This document shows positions 9,254 to 38,662 of a DNA stretch of 43,237 nucleotides, in pieces. Below the pieces are notes generated by a model. It saw only the letters and a program-made list of their open reading frames with translations, was not told where the DNA came from and made no database searches. How positions within the stretch are numbered: position 1 is the stretch's first letter; each line of letters starts with the position of its first letter. A program made the translations under genes and the position numbers. This stretch comes from Candidatus Parcubacteria bacterium (GTDB lineage: Bacteria > Patescibacteriota > Minisyncoccia > JAHIHE01 > JAGLIN01): the NCBI GenBank assembly GCA_023132875.1, contig JAGLXN010000032.1, positions 1 through 43,237 on the forward strand. Reading direction: 5' to 3'.

Positions 9254-9329
9254 CACACCATCTAGCCCCTCTCAAGAGGGGATTTGTATAAAAAATTTGG
9301 AGAAAATTAATAGACCTATCTATGTTAAA

Positions 9330-9371
9330 ATGTTAGTATGTTAGTATGCTAAAATGTTAATATGCTAAAAT
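9330..9371 (+). repeat. ATGTTAGT/ATGCTAAA octamer array before a glycosyltransferase gene
   Basis: About five units of ATGTTAGT, ATGCTAAA and ATGTTAAT in a row. The last unit gives TAAAAT (9366-9371), eight bases before ATG 9380, a spacing that would place the transcription start at the start codon. Confidence 0.7.
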
Positions 9372-9379
9372 GATATCCA

Positions 9380-10516: not shown

Positions 10517-11090
10517 AAGCAATTTTAAACTAATTATAATTATTAGCATCATCACGGCTGTGTCTGCTTTTCTATTTTCCACTATGAAACCGGTTGTGTA
10601 TGAGATATCAATATCTCTTGCAATAAATAAAAATAAAACGCAAATTACAGACGATTTTAAATATGATGGATATTATGCCTTGCAAGCAAGCGAGATGTTA
10701 GCTAATACTATTGTGGAGTGGACGAAAAGTCCGACTATAGTAGATGCGATTTATCAAAAAGCCGGAGTCAATCAGAATTTTAAAAACATCAAAAGCTATA
10801 CTAAAAAATTCACGGCAAAAAAAATGTCCTCCCAGCATGTTGAAATAAAATTCAAAACGAACACAAGAGAAAATGCGGAAAAAATTTCATCGGCGACTGT
10901 GAAAATAATAAGCGATAAAATAAAAACTCTGGAAAAAGACAGTGAAAAAGAAATAGCTTTCTCAGTAAGCAGTGAAAATCCCATAATAATTGAAAATAAA
11001 CCAGATGCGTTTTTAAATTTGTTTATTGGACTTGTTTCAGGATTTATTCTCGGCATTTTTATTGTTTTTGGAAGAAGATATTTTACATAA
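10485..11090 (+). CDS. Wzz/YveK-type polysaccharide chain-length protein
   Basis: 201 residues with two membrane helices, at about 15-33 and 174-195, and a periplasm-facing middle part, the topology of Wzz-type polysaccharide co-polymerases and of the membrane half of bacterial tyrosine kinases. The N terminus MELREYLKIIKSNFKLIII and the C-terminal PDAFLNLFIGLVSGFILGI (Pro before the second helix) fit the family. There is no kinase domain. It would set the length of the glycan made by the surrounding glycosyltransferases. It starts inside the 3' end of the previous gene. Confidence 0.75.
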   Translation: MELREYLKIIKSNFKLIIIISIITAVSAFLFSTMKPVVYEISISLAINKNKTQITDDFKYDGYYALQASEMLANTIVEWTKSPTIVDAIYQKAGVNQNFKNIKSYTKKFTAKKMSSQHVEIKFKTNTRENAEKISSATVKIISDKIKTLEKDSEKEIAFSVSSENPIIIENKPDAFLNLFIGLVSGFILGIFIVFGRRYFT

Positions 11091-11094
11091 TTAT

Positions 11095-11173
11095 ATAAAC
11101 ATTTTAACATTTTAACATTTTAACATTTTAACATTTTCAAAGTGTTAGTATGTTAGTATGCTAAAATGTTAAA
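11095..11173. repeat. Inverted octamer array (AACATTTT arm, ATGTTAGT arm)
   Basis: Left arm: five AACATTTT-type units. Right arm: ATGTTAGT, ATGTTAGT, ATGCTAAA, ATGTTAAA. The arms can pair into a long hairpin with a loop near TCAAAGTG. The final repeat unit runs into ATG 11174, which serves as the start codon of the next gene. Similar inverted arrays are at 34091-34187 and 36839-36902. Confidence 0.8.
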
Positions 11174-12322
11174 ATGATCATCGGTATTGATATCCGCATG
11201 CTTGCTCGCGGAACAAAATCAGGCATTGAAGAATATACGACCAATCTTCTTTCAAATATGATTAGCTTGGACAATAATATTGAATACAAGCTTTTTTATA
11301 ATGGATACAAAAAAACTAAATTGGAATATGATTTCTTAAAACTGCCCAATGTCCAATTAAAAGAATTTAAAATCCCAAACAGGCTGCTTGATGCTTCATT
11401 TCAATTTCTAAATTATCCAAAAATTGACAAAATGCTTGAAAAAATTGATCTTTTCTTTTCTCCTCATATATTTTCATCATCTGTGTCAAAAAAATGCAAA
11501 ACTATAACAACTTTTCACGATTTGAGTTTTGAGAATTATCCTGAATTTTATTCATTCGGTAAAAATTACTGGCACTTTTTAATGAATCCCAGAAAACAGG
11601 CTCAAAAAGCAGATAAAATAATCGCTGTTTCCAAGTCAACAAAAGATGATTTAGTTAAAATTTACGGAATAGAGCCTGAAAAAATAAAAGTTATTTATTC
11701 GGGAATCATATTGGAATCTGGAATCTGGAATCTGGAATCTGAAGTTTTGAAAGTTAAAAGAAAGTATAATCTGCCTGACCATTATATTTTATATTTAGGA
11801 ACGCTGGAACCGCGAAAAAATATTATTGGATTAATTAAAGCGTTTGAAATTTTAAATACTAAATACCAAATACTAAATACTAAATACCAATTAGTTATTG
11901 CCGGTTCAAAAGGATGGCTTTATGAAGATATTTTTAAAGCAGTAAAAGACTCTCCGGTAAAAAATGATATAATTTTTACAGGATTTATTGATGATAAGGA
12001 CAAACCTGCTTTATATAGTTTAGCTGATTTATTTGTTTATCCGTCTTTTTATGAAGGCTTCGGCTTTCCCCCGCTTGAAGCAATGTCCGTTGGAACGCCT
12101 GTTATCACTTCAAATTTTTCATCTTTGCCGGAAGCGGTAGGAGACGCGGCTATTATGGTCAATCCTTATAATCTGGATGAGCTTGCAAAAACAATGGGAA
12201 TGGCTTTGTCTGACAAAAAATTAATGGATATTTTAATTGAAAGAGGATATGAAAGAGTGAAAAATTTTAGCTGGAAAAAATGCGCGGAAGAAACACTTGA
12301 AACTTTAAAAATGGCTATTTAA
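11174..12322 (+). CDS. GT4 glycosyltransferase with two repeat-derived insertions
   Basis: 382 residues, GT-B fold. It starts [21 protein letters not shown], the glycine-rich acceptor loop; [10 protein letters not shown] is at 114-123 and the donor-site motif is Glu294-x7-Glu302 in [12 protein letters not shown]. It is related to the next gene and probably adds consecutive sugars. Two segments look inserted: [12 protein letters not shown] (about 179-190), coded by four TGGAATC units, and a duplicated ILNTKYQ (226-239), coded by repeats of TACTAAA. Both fall in surface turns of the second domain. The ATG is the last ATG of an octamer array, with TAAAAT six bases before it. The next gene follows after 14 bases. 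Confidence 0.85.
11712..11739 (+). repeat. In-frame TGGAATC x4 inside a glycosyltransferase gene
   Basis: Four perfect 7-base units encode the segment [10 protein letters not shown]. Other GT4 proteins, including the neighbour at 12337, have no such segment here. Confidence 0.85.
11850..11890 (+). repeat. In-frame duplication ILNTKYQ inside the same gene
   Basis: AAATACTAAATACCAA is repeated so that ILNTKYQ occurs twice in a row before the strand LVIAG. Confidence 0.8.
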
Positions 12323-29530: not shown

Positions 29531-30868
29531 TTATCCAAAATACGGCAGATTTTCTATTTTCTTAATTTCTGAATAATATATCAGCAATCCCTGTGAAATT
29601 AATATAAAAATAACCGCCCAGAGATAAATCAGTTTTTTATCAGTTATATTATTTCTTTTAATAAATATATTAGCGAATTCATAAATACCGATTCCAGATA
29701 TTATCTGAAAAGCAATTAGAACTGGAACAATATATCTAAAAGAATAAGTTTTGCTAAACAAAATCACAAAAGCGAAGAATGAAAAGAAATAAATCGCTAA
29801 AATTAAAGCTTCGCTGCTTACATTCATTTTATTACTTATTCTTCTTATAATCAATAGCAAAAACCCAACAAAAATTATTATTACAAAAAGATTAAACGAC
29901 AGGACAAACGAATCAGACAAATACGCAAGCGCTACATTGGAACCGAAAAGAACGCTATGATTCTCAGTTATAATTCTTTGGGAGCTTTCTTTCGTTATCA
30001 AATTTAATACAGATCGCGGATTTGATATTATAGCGGGTAAAAAAATAACGCTTGTTGAGAAAAAAACAATGATCCAAGACGCGTAATCTTTGATTATGTT
30101 TTTTATATCACTGTAGAGACGCAATATTGCTGCGTCTCTACGAAAATATGACGCAAAACTTAACTTATAAAACATTAAAACAAATAAGCCAAAGGGGATA
30201 AGAAATAAAGCTGACATTTTTGTAAGCGCGGCCCATGAGCCAAGCACCGCTGAAAAAACAAGAAACTTTCTGCCTCCTTTACCGCTTGAATAAACCAATA
30301 AGCTTAAAAGACTTAGAATGGAAAAAATACCGACAAATTTATCGGTTGGAGTTGTAAAATATATATAGTATGGAGTAGTTACTATTAAAAGCACGGAAAA
30401 AATTACAGCCCATCTGCTAAATGCCAGTTTCCGCAATAAATAAAATAAAGAAAAAATAAAGAAAAAAATTGTTGTTAATATCGGAATATTAAACAAAAAA
30501 CTCATTTCCTTATAATTACCAAATAATTCTTGATTTCTTTCATTTATAACATTATAGCCAACACCAGATTCATTGAGATTTTTTATAAAGCTAACAATAG
30601 AATTAAAATCATAATTTAAAATCTCCATAAAGGGTCCTGCTGCCCACATTACCATAATTCCCGGATGCGGCGACTGTATTAAATTAGAAAAATCAAAACT
30701 TAAAATACTATCCATAAAAAATCTTGAACGAAACATCCACAAAAGTTCGTCAAGATTTATAAAGGTCATGGAATGTTTTATTTTAAAAAAAGATAAAAAA
30801 ACAATCCCGACAAAAACAATTACAAACACAACGAGAAAATCTTTTATGTTTTCTTTATTTTTTTTCAT
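29531..30868 (-). CDS. GT-C membrane glycosyltransferase, paralogue B, interrupted in frame by a palindrome
   Basis: 445 residues from ATG 30868; the frame is open to TTG 30898 but the ATG fits better. About 10 membrane helices. The first outer loop has MTFINLDELLWMFRSRFF with the conserved Asp-Glu of GT39-type enzymes, then LIQSPHPGIMVMWAAGP. The gene at 32750-34093 is a clear paralogue (there LDEMLW and LIQSAQPGIMVYW). Compared with it, this protein has 12 extra residues before the conserved IIKDYASW, matching a 29-base palindrome (30113-30141). The rest of the frame is intact, so it may still be active. Confidence 0.8.
   Translation of the reverse strand: MKKNKENIKDFLVVFVIVFVGIVFLSFFKIKHSMTFINLDELLWMFRSRFFMDSILSFDFSNLIQSPHPGIMVMWAAGPFMEILNYDFNSIVSFIKNLNESGVGYNVINERNQELFGNYKEMSFLFNIPILTTIFFFIFSLFYLLRKLAFSRWAVIFSVLLIVTTPYYIYFTTPTDKFVGIFSILSLLSLLVYSSGKGGRKFLVFSAVLGSWAALTKMSALFLIPFGLFVLMFYKLSFASYFRRDAAILRLYSDIKNIIKDYASWIIVFFSTSVIFLPAIISNPRSVLNLITKESSQRIITENHSVLFGSNVALAYLSDSFVLSFNLFVIIIFVGFLLLIIRRISNKMNVSSEALILAIYFFSFFAFVILFSKTYSFRYIVPVLIAFQIISGIGIYEFANIFIKRNNITDKKLIYLWAVIFILISQGLLIYYSEIKKIENLPYFG
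30113..30141. repeat. GTAGAGACGCA palindrome inside a GT-C gene
   Basis: GTAGAGACGCA and TGCGTCTCTAC pair perfectly (11 bp) around ATATTGC. With its flanks it encodes FRRDAAILRLYS, 12 residues absent from the paralogue at 32750-34093. Confidence 0.85.
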
Positions 30869-32749: not shown

Positions 32750-34093
32750 CTAAAAAAACTTTAAAACACCGTCTTCAATTATTCTTTTTGATAATTGCCC
32801 GCTTGAGGTAATAAAAATAATCTGAGACAACACCACTACAATAAACACTAATGTATAAAGAATTTTCTTATCTTCATTGTCCAGTTTTATCTTTTCCGCA
32901 ATTAATTCAAAAATTCCATACAGTCCAACAGCGGAAATAATATTTAATACAACAAAAGCAGGTGACATAAATCTAATATCATGATTTTTACTTATCAGAG
33001 TAACCATGACAAAAAATAGAACTATATATAAACTTATAATATTAATGATTTTTTTAGGAAGCGAATCAAGCACATGCCTATATTCTTTTTTAAAATTAAT
33101 AATAAAATAGGCAAATAACGACATAGAAGATGCCTGTGCCATATATCCTATTATCACAAACGCAAAAGACTTTAAATAGTCAAATAAGACTCTATGTGCA
33201 TAATTACTGACTTCGTAGCTTTTTTCAATAACATGTTCCGATTTAAAAACTAAACTATAAACCTCTTGCGAATTTGTAATTATGGTCGGCAAAAATACTA
33301 TGCTTATAACAATAAAAATCAAAATCCATGATAAATAGTCTTTCAAGATAAGTTTTATCTTTTTTTTATCAATTGGCCATGCGTAAAAAACAAAAATCAA
33401 TAAATAAAAAGGTAAAATAAAAAACGCTGATAATTTAGAAAGTACAGCCCAAGCACCAAACACTGCGGATAAATATAAATATTTTTTGCTTCCAAGCTTG
33501 TTTATATATATAAGAATTGTCAAAAAACTCAGAGTCATAAAAATATTTAGCATTTTGTCGCTTGGAGTATTCCAATAAGCAAGAAATACGTTTGTTGTCA
33601 AAAATAAAAGAGCGAAACTTGATATTACTTTATTAAACCCCAATTTTCTTATTAGATAATAAAATGCTATAAAAAAAGCCACTGTTAACAATATTAACGG
33701 TGCATTAAAAGCAAAACTTATCGTTTCATATGCCATATAAACGGCTTGATTATTATCATTAATCGCGTGATTAAAATCAAGGCCTTGGGCTTCTTTCTCG
33801 GCAATTCTCCTCATAACATCATTAAAATCAAAATCTATAAACTTCATCATAAAACCGGTAAACCAATATACCATTATCCCCGGTTGGGCTGATTGAATGA
33901 GTCCTGAAAAATCAAAATTTACAATCTTGTCCCAAAAAATACTTGCTCTATAATGCCAAAGCATTTCATCAAGACTGGGGAAAGTAAAGAAATTATTTAA
34001 TTTCATAATAGCAGTCACGACAAATCCAGAAAATATAATTACCATAACACTAATAAATTCTTCAAGTTTTCGATAATTTGATTTAAAATCCAT
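32750..34093 (-). CDS. GT-C membrane glycosyltransferase, paralogue A
   Basis: 447 residues, about 10 membrane helices. The first outer loop contains FPSLDEMLWHYRASIFW with the conserved Asp-Glu, then LIQSAQPGIMVYWFTGFMM. Later markers shared with the gene at 29531 are FGAWAVLSKLSAFFILP, LILKDYLSWI and VFLPTII. These outer-face enzymes take sugar from a polyprenyl phosphate. It is the first gene of the minus-strand operon. Its ATG is the last ATG of an octamer repeat array, with TAATAT six bases before it (minus strand), which suggests a leaderless transcript. Confidence 0.82.
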   Translation of the reverse strand: MDFKSNYRKLEEFISVMVIIFSGFVVTAIMKLNNFFTFPSLDEMLWHYRASIFWDKIVNFDFSGLIQSAQPGIMVYWFTGFMMKFIDFDFNDVMRRIAEKEAQGLDFNHAINDNNQAVYMAYETISFAFNAPLILLTVAFFIAFYYLIRKLGFNKVISSFALLFLTTNVFLAYWNTPSDKMLNIFMTLSFLTILIYINKLGSKKYLYLSAVFGAWAVLSKLSAFFILPFYLLIFVFYAWPIDKKKIKLILKDYLSWILIFIVISIVFLPTIITNSQEVYSLVFKSEHVIEKSYEVSNYAHRVLFDYLKSFAFVIIGYMAQASSMSLFAYFIINFKKEYRHVLDSLPKKIINIISLYIVLFFVMVTLISKNHDIRFMSPAFVVLNIISAVGLYGIFELIAEKIKLDNEDKKILYTLVFIVVVLSQIIFITSSGQLSKRIIEDGVLKFF

Positions 34094-34187
34094 ACTAACA
34101 TATTAACATTTTAACATACTAATATTTTAACACATTTAGACATCTGAAGTGTTTGTTAAAATGTTAATATGTTAGTATGTTAAAATG
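34091..34187. repeat. Inverted octamer array between tRNA-Leu and the GT-C operon
   Basis: AACATACTAA/AACATTTT-type units on the left and ATGTTAAA/ATGTTAGT units on the right, separated by a 25-base spacer. On the minus strand the array ends ATGTTAGT and then ATG, the start codon at 34093. Confidence 0.8.
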
Positions 34188-34193
34188 ACTCTG

Positions 34194-34273
34194 TGCAGGC
34201 GGTGGGAGTCGAACCCACACTCCGAAGAACACGGTCCTAAGCCGTGCGCGTATGCCAATTCCGCCACGCCTGC
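34194..34273 (-). tRNA. tRNA-Leu (anticodon TAG)
   Basis: An 80-base type II tRNA on the minus strand. The acceptor GCAGGCG pairs with CGCCTGC. The D arm (TGGCGGAATTGGCATACGCG) has the GG-containing loop of leucine tRNAs. Anticodon stem CACGG/CCGTG, loop CTTAGGA, anticodon TAG (complement of 34237-34239). The variable arm contains TTCTTCGGAG, and the T arm is GTGGG/CCCAC. No CCA is encoded. The 308-bp gap upstream (34274-34581) holds AATTCAT repeats, ATAAACAT repeats and a GTCAT repeat, with no supported gene. Confidence 0.92.
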
Positions 34274-36295: not shown

Positions 36296-36821
36296 CAGTG
36301 AGCTTTCGTTTGAACGCAAAAGCCTCAAGCACAAAGATCAAAGAATTGGCGTTTTTGTTGATGCCCAAAATATGTATCATAGCGCCAGAAATCTCTATAA
36401 AGCAAGAGTAAATTTTAAAGAAGTACTGAGCGTTGCCGTATCTGGAAGAATTTTAATAAGGGCAATAACTTATGTAATAAGAACCGAAAGCGGGGAAGAA
36501 AAATCATTTTTTGAAGCAATGGAAAAACTTGGATTTGAAATCAAAGAAAAGGATCTTCAAATATTCGCCGGCGGGCAAAAAAAAGCGGATTGGGATGTGG
36601 GACTTGCCGTTGACGCGATAAAACTGGCAGATAAGCTTGATGTAGTCGTTATCGTATCAGGAGACGGAGACTATGAACCTTTAGTTGAATATTTAAAAAT
36701 AAACAAAGGATGCCGGGTAGAAACTGTCGCTTTTGGAGAAAGCGCTTCAGCTAAACTCATAGAAGTAGCCGACGAATTTACGGATTTAAGCAAGGATAAA
36801 AAAAGGTTTTTGATAAAATAA
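36270..36821 (+). CDS. NYN-domain (LabA/DUF88-like) protein, probable RNase
   Basis: 183 residues. The PIN-like NYN domain begins at about 26 with GVFVDAQNMYHSAR (Asp31 and Asn34), has the middle acidic KKADWDVGLAVDAIKLAD, and ends with VVIVSGDGDYEPLVEYL. These Asp residues match the metal-binding positions of NYN nucleases; LabA itself is a circadian regulator in cyanobacteria, while others are RNases. It overlaps rpsO by 26 bases, so translation is coupled to that of a ribosomal protein, which suggests a link to RNA metabolism. The first 20 residues are basic and unlike the family; a later start is possible but no better one is seen. Confidence 0.82.
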   Translation: MIKKTKKSSSELSFERKSLKHKDQRIGVFVDAQNMYHSARNLYKARVNFKEVLSVAVSGRILIRAITYVIRTESGEEKSFFEAMEKLGFEIKEKDLQIFAGGQKKADWDVGLAVDAIKLADKLDVVVIVSGDGDYEPLVEYLKINKGCRVETVAFGESASAKLIEVADEFTDLSKDKKRFLIK

Positions 36822-36838
36822 ATATCATACTAATATAT

Positions 36839-36902
36839 CAACATTTTAACATACTAACATTCTTAAATACTTGTTAAAATGTTAGTATGTTAGTATGTTA
36901 AA
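36839..36902. repeat. Inverted octamer array
   Basis: AACATTTT/AACATACT units, a spacer (CTTAAATACTTG), then ATGTTAAA, ATGTTAGT, ATGTTAGT, ATGTTAAA running into ATG 36903. Same family as 11095-11173 and 34091-34187. Confidence 0.8.
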
Positions 36903-37079
36903 ATGAATAATATGTTCAAAAAATTAAAAGAAAAAATAAATATCAAAAAGAAAATGATGAAAAAGGCGGCTTTTTTGGCTATTATTACTTATATTTATGA
37001 TAAAGTCGCGAATAGGAAGAAACTAGGAAAAAAGAAGTATATCGAAGATGTGGAGTATGAGGTGAAAGATAAGAAATAG
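36903..37079 (+). CDS. Small basic protein, 58 aa, unknown function
   Basis: 58 residues from ATG 36903, or 55 from ATG 36912. It is highly basic: MNNMFKKLKEKINIKKKMM, a short hydrophobic helix (AAFLAIITYIYDKVA, about 22-36) and a Lys/Glu-rich tail ending VKDKK. The helix may be membrane-associated. The start codon is the last ATG of an octamer array; TAAAAT lies seven bases before ATG 36912. It is followed by a 20-base palindrome with a T-run that can end its transcript. No family is recognised. Confidence 0.5.
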   Translation: MNNMFKKLKEKINIKKKMMKKAAFLAIITYIYDKVANRKKLGKKKYIEDVEYEVKDKK

Positions 37080-38403: not shown

Positions 38404-38644
38404 TCCCTAATCACCAAACAAGTAGATTATTTCAGTTTAAGATAAACCGAATCTTAATCTAAAGTTTGTTGATTAGGGAAATAATAAGGGCTTAAGAAAA
38501 AACAAATTGTTTAATTCGTATTCAAATTTGCGACAGATAAACTTTTAAAAAATTGAAGAATAGCCGAGTTATTTTGAAAGTTTTTAAAAGTTTAGATAGC
38601 GTGAATTTGAATACGAAGTGAATAAGTTATTTTTTCTTAAGCCC
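38404..38644 (+). promoter_or_regulatory. Large double-hairpin leader of pnp
   Basis: Hairpin A (38404-38479): TCCCTAATCACCAAAC pairs with GTTTGTTGATTAGGGA with one mismatch, and an inner AGATTA/TAATCT. Hairpin B (38488-38644) has three perfect stems: GGGCTTAAGAAAAAA with its 15-base complement, TTCGTATTCAAATT with AATTTGAATACGAA (14 bp), and AAACTTTTAAAAA with TTTTTAAAAGTTT (13 bp). It ends 18 bases before ATG 38663. In E. coli the pnp leader forms a long hairpin cut by RNase III and used for PNPase autoregulation; a similar role is inferred. Alternatively it is a mobile repeat. Confidence 0.6.
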
Positions 38645-38662
38645 TAAGAAAGGAATAAAAAA

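Follow-up and report, generated by a model that had tools for sequence, protein, structure and literature searches.

A REP-like palindrome read in frame within a loop of a patescibacterial membrane glycosyltransferase

Architecture of the locus

The window analyzed here, a stretch of 43,237 nucleotides from a Patescibacteria (Paceibacterota-type) MAG (the source genome, G000; other G-numbers denote the genomes of relatives), carries on its minus strand, at 29531–30868, a gene for a GT-C fold membrane glycosyltransferase of 445 residues. This assignment draws on matches of the relatives of its product to PMT_2 and on fold matches: the structure model of the product (pLDDT 81) has its best PDB folds among OST/PglB/ArnT, with borderline E-values (0.001 and worse). 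No relative of the gene was found in viral contigs. A paralogue of 447 residues with a short loop lies on the same strand at 32750–34093, and a minus-strand tRNA gene lies at 34194–34273 (Rfam RF00005). Elsewhere in the window we noted arrays of an 8-nt unit (TGTTAAAA / TGTTAGTA) at 9312–9373, 11085–11177, 34084–34188 and 36819–36906, which are largely intergenic and often in an inverted arrangement, and an imperfect hairpin of about 160 bp at 38487–38645 with the ends AGGGCTTAAG/CTTAAGCCCT. The latter has two more near-full copies (86–88%) at G000:C9:69094 and G000:C30:3722, along with partial central matches, and is therefore a MITE-like family; Rfam returned no match for the window hairpin.

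Within the glycosyltransferase gene lies a REP-like palindrome of 29 bp (30113–30141, with no strand assigned) with the layout GTAGAGACGCA-ATATTGC-TGCGTCTCTAC, in which two perfect arms of 11 bp each (30113–30123 and 30131–30141) enclose a spacer of 7 nt. None of 100 shuffled controls held a comparable palindrome, even with 3 mismatches allowed, and the RNA fold of the element reaches -20.6 kcal/mol (z -4.8). The GTAG end is paired with the terminal CTAC in this predicted fold, and hence does not stand unpaired outside the stem. Two of the three reading frames across the palindrome are free of stops, while the third starts with TAG. Together with one further base (30113–30142, minus strand) the palindrome supplies ten codons, which are read as RRDAAILRLY and correspond to residues 243–252 of the product, a low-confidence loop joining two long membrane helices in the structure model. 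Thus, the exact palindrome that the initial annotation had placed inside this gene is present as described and exceeds chance by both shuffles and fold, and its translation into protein holds as an in-frame segment of an open minus-strand gene.

A dispersed family of GTAG-ended repeats

The further claim that the palindrome is an element of a mobile type is borne out in so far as it is one copy of a family dispersed in the source genome. This family, GTAGAGACG(N)CGTCTCTAC, has 11 strict copies in G000, comprising 8 of a GTAGARAC type and 3 of a GTAGG type; one copy, G000:C67:12606-12634, is identical to that of the window at 27 of 29 bases. All strict copies begin with GTAG and finish with CTAC, both of which were required by the search patterns. 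Being 28–29 bp long, multicopy and dispersed, the element fits the 20–40 bp size of GTAG-type REPs. Of 380 genomes sampled from the phylum, 23 contain the GTAGAGACG(N)CGTCTCTAC core, with inner halves that vary yet remain self-complementary; the listed genomes yielded no match to a control with the pattern reversed. By hand-entered classes, 7 of the 11 copies in G000 are intergenic, while 12 of 14 in G003 and 10 of 12 in G009 are intragenic. Among the literature matches listed for GTAGAGACG there was none on the repeat, the matches being apparently of the primer type, and within a partial coverage of the literature we found no paper that describes REPs from the candidate phyla radiation.

Loop length and age of the element

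The initial annotation had read the paralogue at 32750–34093 as an undisturbed internal control, and on this basis had proposed a 12-residue insertion by an element that still moves or had recently moved. The two proteins indeed align (35% identity), with the loop of the paralogue being 12 residues shorter. In the tree, the gene at 29531–30868 and six orthologues form one clade, with a homologue from G016 as their sister, whereas the paralogue falls in another clade that had split off before the seven orthologues diverged from one another and from their G016 sister. Being an ancient paralogue of a separate clade on this phylogeny, it is not an empty-site control for the loop. A class-wide protein search of 384 genomes yielded no additional close orthologue, and the counts given here cover only the six true orthologues that span the loop site, in a comparison sample made up of draft MAGs in which the genus of G000 is represented by one genome.

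All six of these orthologues have the long loop, which equals that of G000 in G002, G012 and G007 and is 3 residues longer in G006, G008 and G010, and in none of the six is the palindrome intact. The extra length is thus most simply ancestral to the orthologues and not creditable to an insertion specific to G000. A gain of exactly 12 residues is not supported here, and neither is recent movement of the window copy. Homologues with the extra residues and no DNA palindrome had been named as the observation that would count against the insertion; such homologues were found as far as loop length is concerned, but their residues differ.

Evidence regarding the age of the element comes from G002, whose orthologue is the nearest to the window gene (69% identity). 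Its 29 orthologous bases are identical to the REP consensus at 16 positions, the best match of the whole gene, and of the 13 differences 9 are transitions, 8 of which run toward A or T. With a substitution matrix built from the rest of the G000/G002 gene pair, the log-odds for REP descent of this site is 9.7 nats, which ranks first among 1340 windows, whereas the G012 and G007 sites have strongly negative scores in the same test. No trace of a REP remnant was found in the loops of G006, G008, G010, G012 and G007. Given this REP-like remnant at the orthologous bases of G002, the element is probably older than the G000/G002 split: it would have been present by their common ancestor, decaying in G002 and staying near-intact in G000. 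Changes from consensus number 2 in G000 and 13 in G002, an asymmetry with p 0.004–0.02 by relative rate, and neither of the two REP subtypes tested has a strict copy left in the G002 genome. As a single site, the remnant could partly reflect a shared amino-acid constraint.

In-frame REPs and RAYT transposases in related genomes

The entry of palindromes into genes with addition of protein sequence, the more general part of the initial claim, is seen in related ultra-small bacteria, where many housekeeping genes hold such palindromes in frame and filled and empty sites can be compared. In G003 and G009, 22 of the 26 copies lie in frame inside long genes, which by names assigned by eye include mutM (two sites), iscS, topA, miaB, elp3 (two sites), recO (two sites), ileS and tsaD; further intragenic REPs occur in tgt and uvrC of G046 and in polA of G016. 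The elements are read in phase 0 (VETRQCLVST) or phase 1 (RRDEALPRLY), and never in the phase that starts with TAG. The iscS site is empty in G011, G004, G000 and G002, site b of elp3 in the congeners G009 and G011, and the site in the C28b phosphoesterase in G000; filled and empty sites were also observed in a GH57-like gene. Filled sites show a net gain of about 6–9 codons per element of 28–29 nt, with +7 to +9 codons (21–27 nt) in iscS, site b of elp3, the phosphoesterase and the GH57-like gene; as this gain is smaller than the element, its arrival seems to remove target bases. In miaB the REP occupies the position of a longer stretch found in other genomes. With regard to the MITE criterion, pairs of empty and filled sites gave no clean target-site duplication.

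At two loci of G046 (L044, tgt-like, and L126, uvrC-like) the REPs are flanked by further inverted repeats, such as gatgttgccatt-REP-aatggcaacatc, and these flanks look as if adjoining sequence had been copied in reverse. Separately, for the recO-like (L201), elp3-like (L171) and miaB-like (L186) genes of G000, the same loops contain, in other genomes, inserts that are repeat-like yet unrelated, for example a TCATTGCGAGGAGCG-type sequence in recO of G000 and G004.

A subgroup of RAYT genes, with six members from five genera (L232, L233, L234, L235, L237 and L238), carries an internal REP in phase 0 at one homologous position after the HUH motif. Its subtype is usually that of the flanking REP: the upstream REP has the internal subtype in G007, G009, G008 and G004, and is near-identical in G003. 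Internal stops occur in three members, those of G008, G004 and G005. G000 gave no match to this subgroup and no cognate RAYT was found in it; its three Y1 transposase genes fall outside the subgroup, and one of them is flanked by a different palindrome, GGCTCCAGTC..GACTGGAGCC.

Origin of the palindrome

The explanation that we consider probable is that of a non-autonomous REP-like element spread by RAYT. A RAYT-type HUH transposase of the lineage would have dispersed the GTAG-ended hairpin. By the time of the last ancestor shared by G000 and G002 at the latest, a copy would have landed between two helices of the glycosyltransferase, in a tolerant loop. There it is read through in a stop-free frame, and would have taken the place of loop residues as opposed to adding 12. 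The copy in G002 would then have decayed, while that in G000 may have stayed nearly intact through slow decay or in-place renewal. Against this explanation stand the lack of a cognate RAYT in G000 and the five orthologues with no REP trace at the site.

A refinement compatible with this explanation, which we regard as possible though somewhat doubtful, is that an older REP in the loop was overwritten or corrected by an intact subtype in G000, giving a young sequence at an old site; conversion, re-insertion into the REP and arm-templated repair are potential routes. The contrast of a near-consensus copy in G000 with a decayed one in G002 favors such renewal, as do switches of subtype at shared sites. 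In recO the subtype is GAGACG in G009 versus GGAACG in G003, that of the O-antigen ligase in G003 and G009 differs from the one in G000, and the subtypes at topA and at site 1 of mutM likewise differ among genomes, while 11–13 of 13 stem pairs are kept at the shared sites in all compared copies but one. Stem pairing alone tends to persist at intragenic REPs; we abandoned the idea that these simply exceed their flanks in conservation, as pooled identities (87% against about 84%) are about the same. The subtype in one loop of an AAG-like glycosylase also differs between G000 and G004, and the REPs within the RAYT genes match the flanking subtype. However, separate arrivals in the same permissive loops would produce a similar picture, the 9-nt offset between the two AAG-like REPs makes independent insertion into tolerant loops a possibility and favors it in that gene, and no intermediate was seen at the window site. 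We suggest only tentatively that, in this Patescibacteria family, loops of housekeeping proteins might be long-lived docking sites at which REP subtypes are swapped in place with the hairpin kept, and that the mobilizing RAYT's own coding REP, just after the HUH motif, might change subtype along with the flanking REPs.

A further reading places the insertion, and with it the lengthening of the loop, at the root of the orthologue group, with later decay in all lineages but G000 and, in part, G002; it appears unlikely. The excess of 12 residues over the paralogue clade is roughly that of a REP plus flank, but the five orthologues lacking any trace argue against it, and an intact copy over such divergence would need conservation or renewal. 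A recent in-frame insertion of 10–12 residues in G000 only is strongly disfavored, and we give it very little weight. In its favor, the palindrome is intact (27/29) in G000 alone, the paralogue and the G016 homologue are shorter, and comparable insertions occur at other genes of relatives. Against it, the loop in six orthologues equals or slightly exceeds that of G000, and G002, besides its remnant, aligns gaplessly with G000 through the element and both flanks, with no change in length at the element ends. Finally, a chance or coding-driven palindrome, for which its intragenic position is the sole point, is refuted by the shuffled controls, the near-identical copies dispersed in G000 and the occurrence of the core across the phylum.

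If the probable explanation of a RAYT-spread element is borne out, the filled and empty sites among congeners would be a natural system in which to measure RAYT/REP insertion into coding DNA, and one could determine how much target sequence is removed and how frequently mobile palindromes give rise to protein loops. The case of the gene at 32750–34093 cautions that a paralogue is not equivalent to an empty-site control.

Comparison with known palindromic elements

GTAG-tagged REPs are dispersed palindromes of 20–40 bp that start with GTAG (Di Nocera et al. 2013, PMC3733652), and RAYT genes are flanked by the same repeat (PMC3733652, PMC2817692); intragenic copies in frame have been reported in several species, including in DNA repair genes (PMC3733652). 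The present family resembles them (PMC3733652, PMC2817692) in its size, GTAG start, dispersal, association with RAYT in relatives of G000 and in-frame intragenic copies. It differs in that GTAG, an unpaired tag in the known elements, is here paired with CTAC in a symmetric palindrome, in that the copies of G003 and G009 are mostly intragenic, and in that the RAYT genes hold a REP within their own coding sequence. RPE-1, RPE-4 and RPE-6 are Rickettsia palindromic elements of R. conorii, of which RPE-4 and RPE-6 have been treated as CGTC-type REPs that lack a dedicated transposase (PMC3733652). By their description, these are likewise palindromes read in frame within many protein genes, but RPE-1 is longer and Rickettsia belongs to a different phylum. 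Intragenic REPs are thus already known elsewhere, and the palindrome of the window is a real element of an ordinary, known kind, while the lineage around it shows in-frame REPs with unusual clarity.
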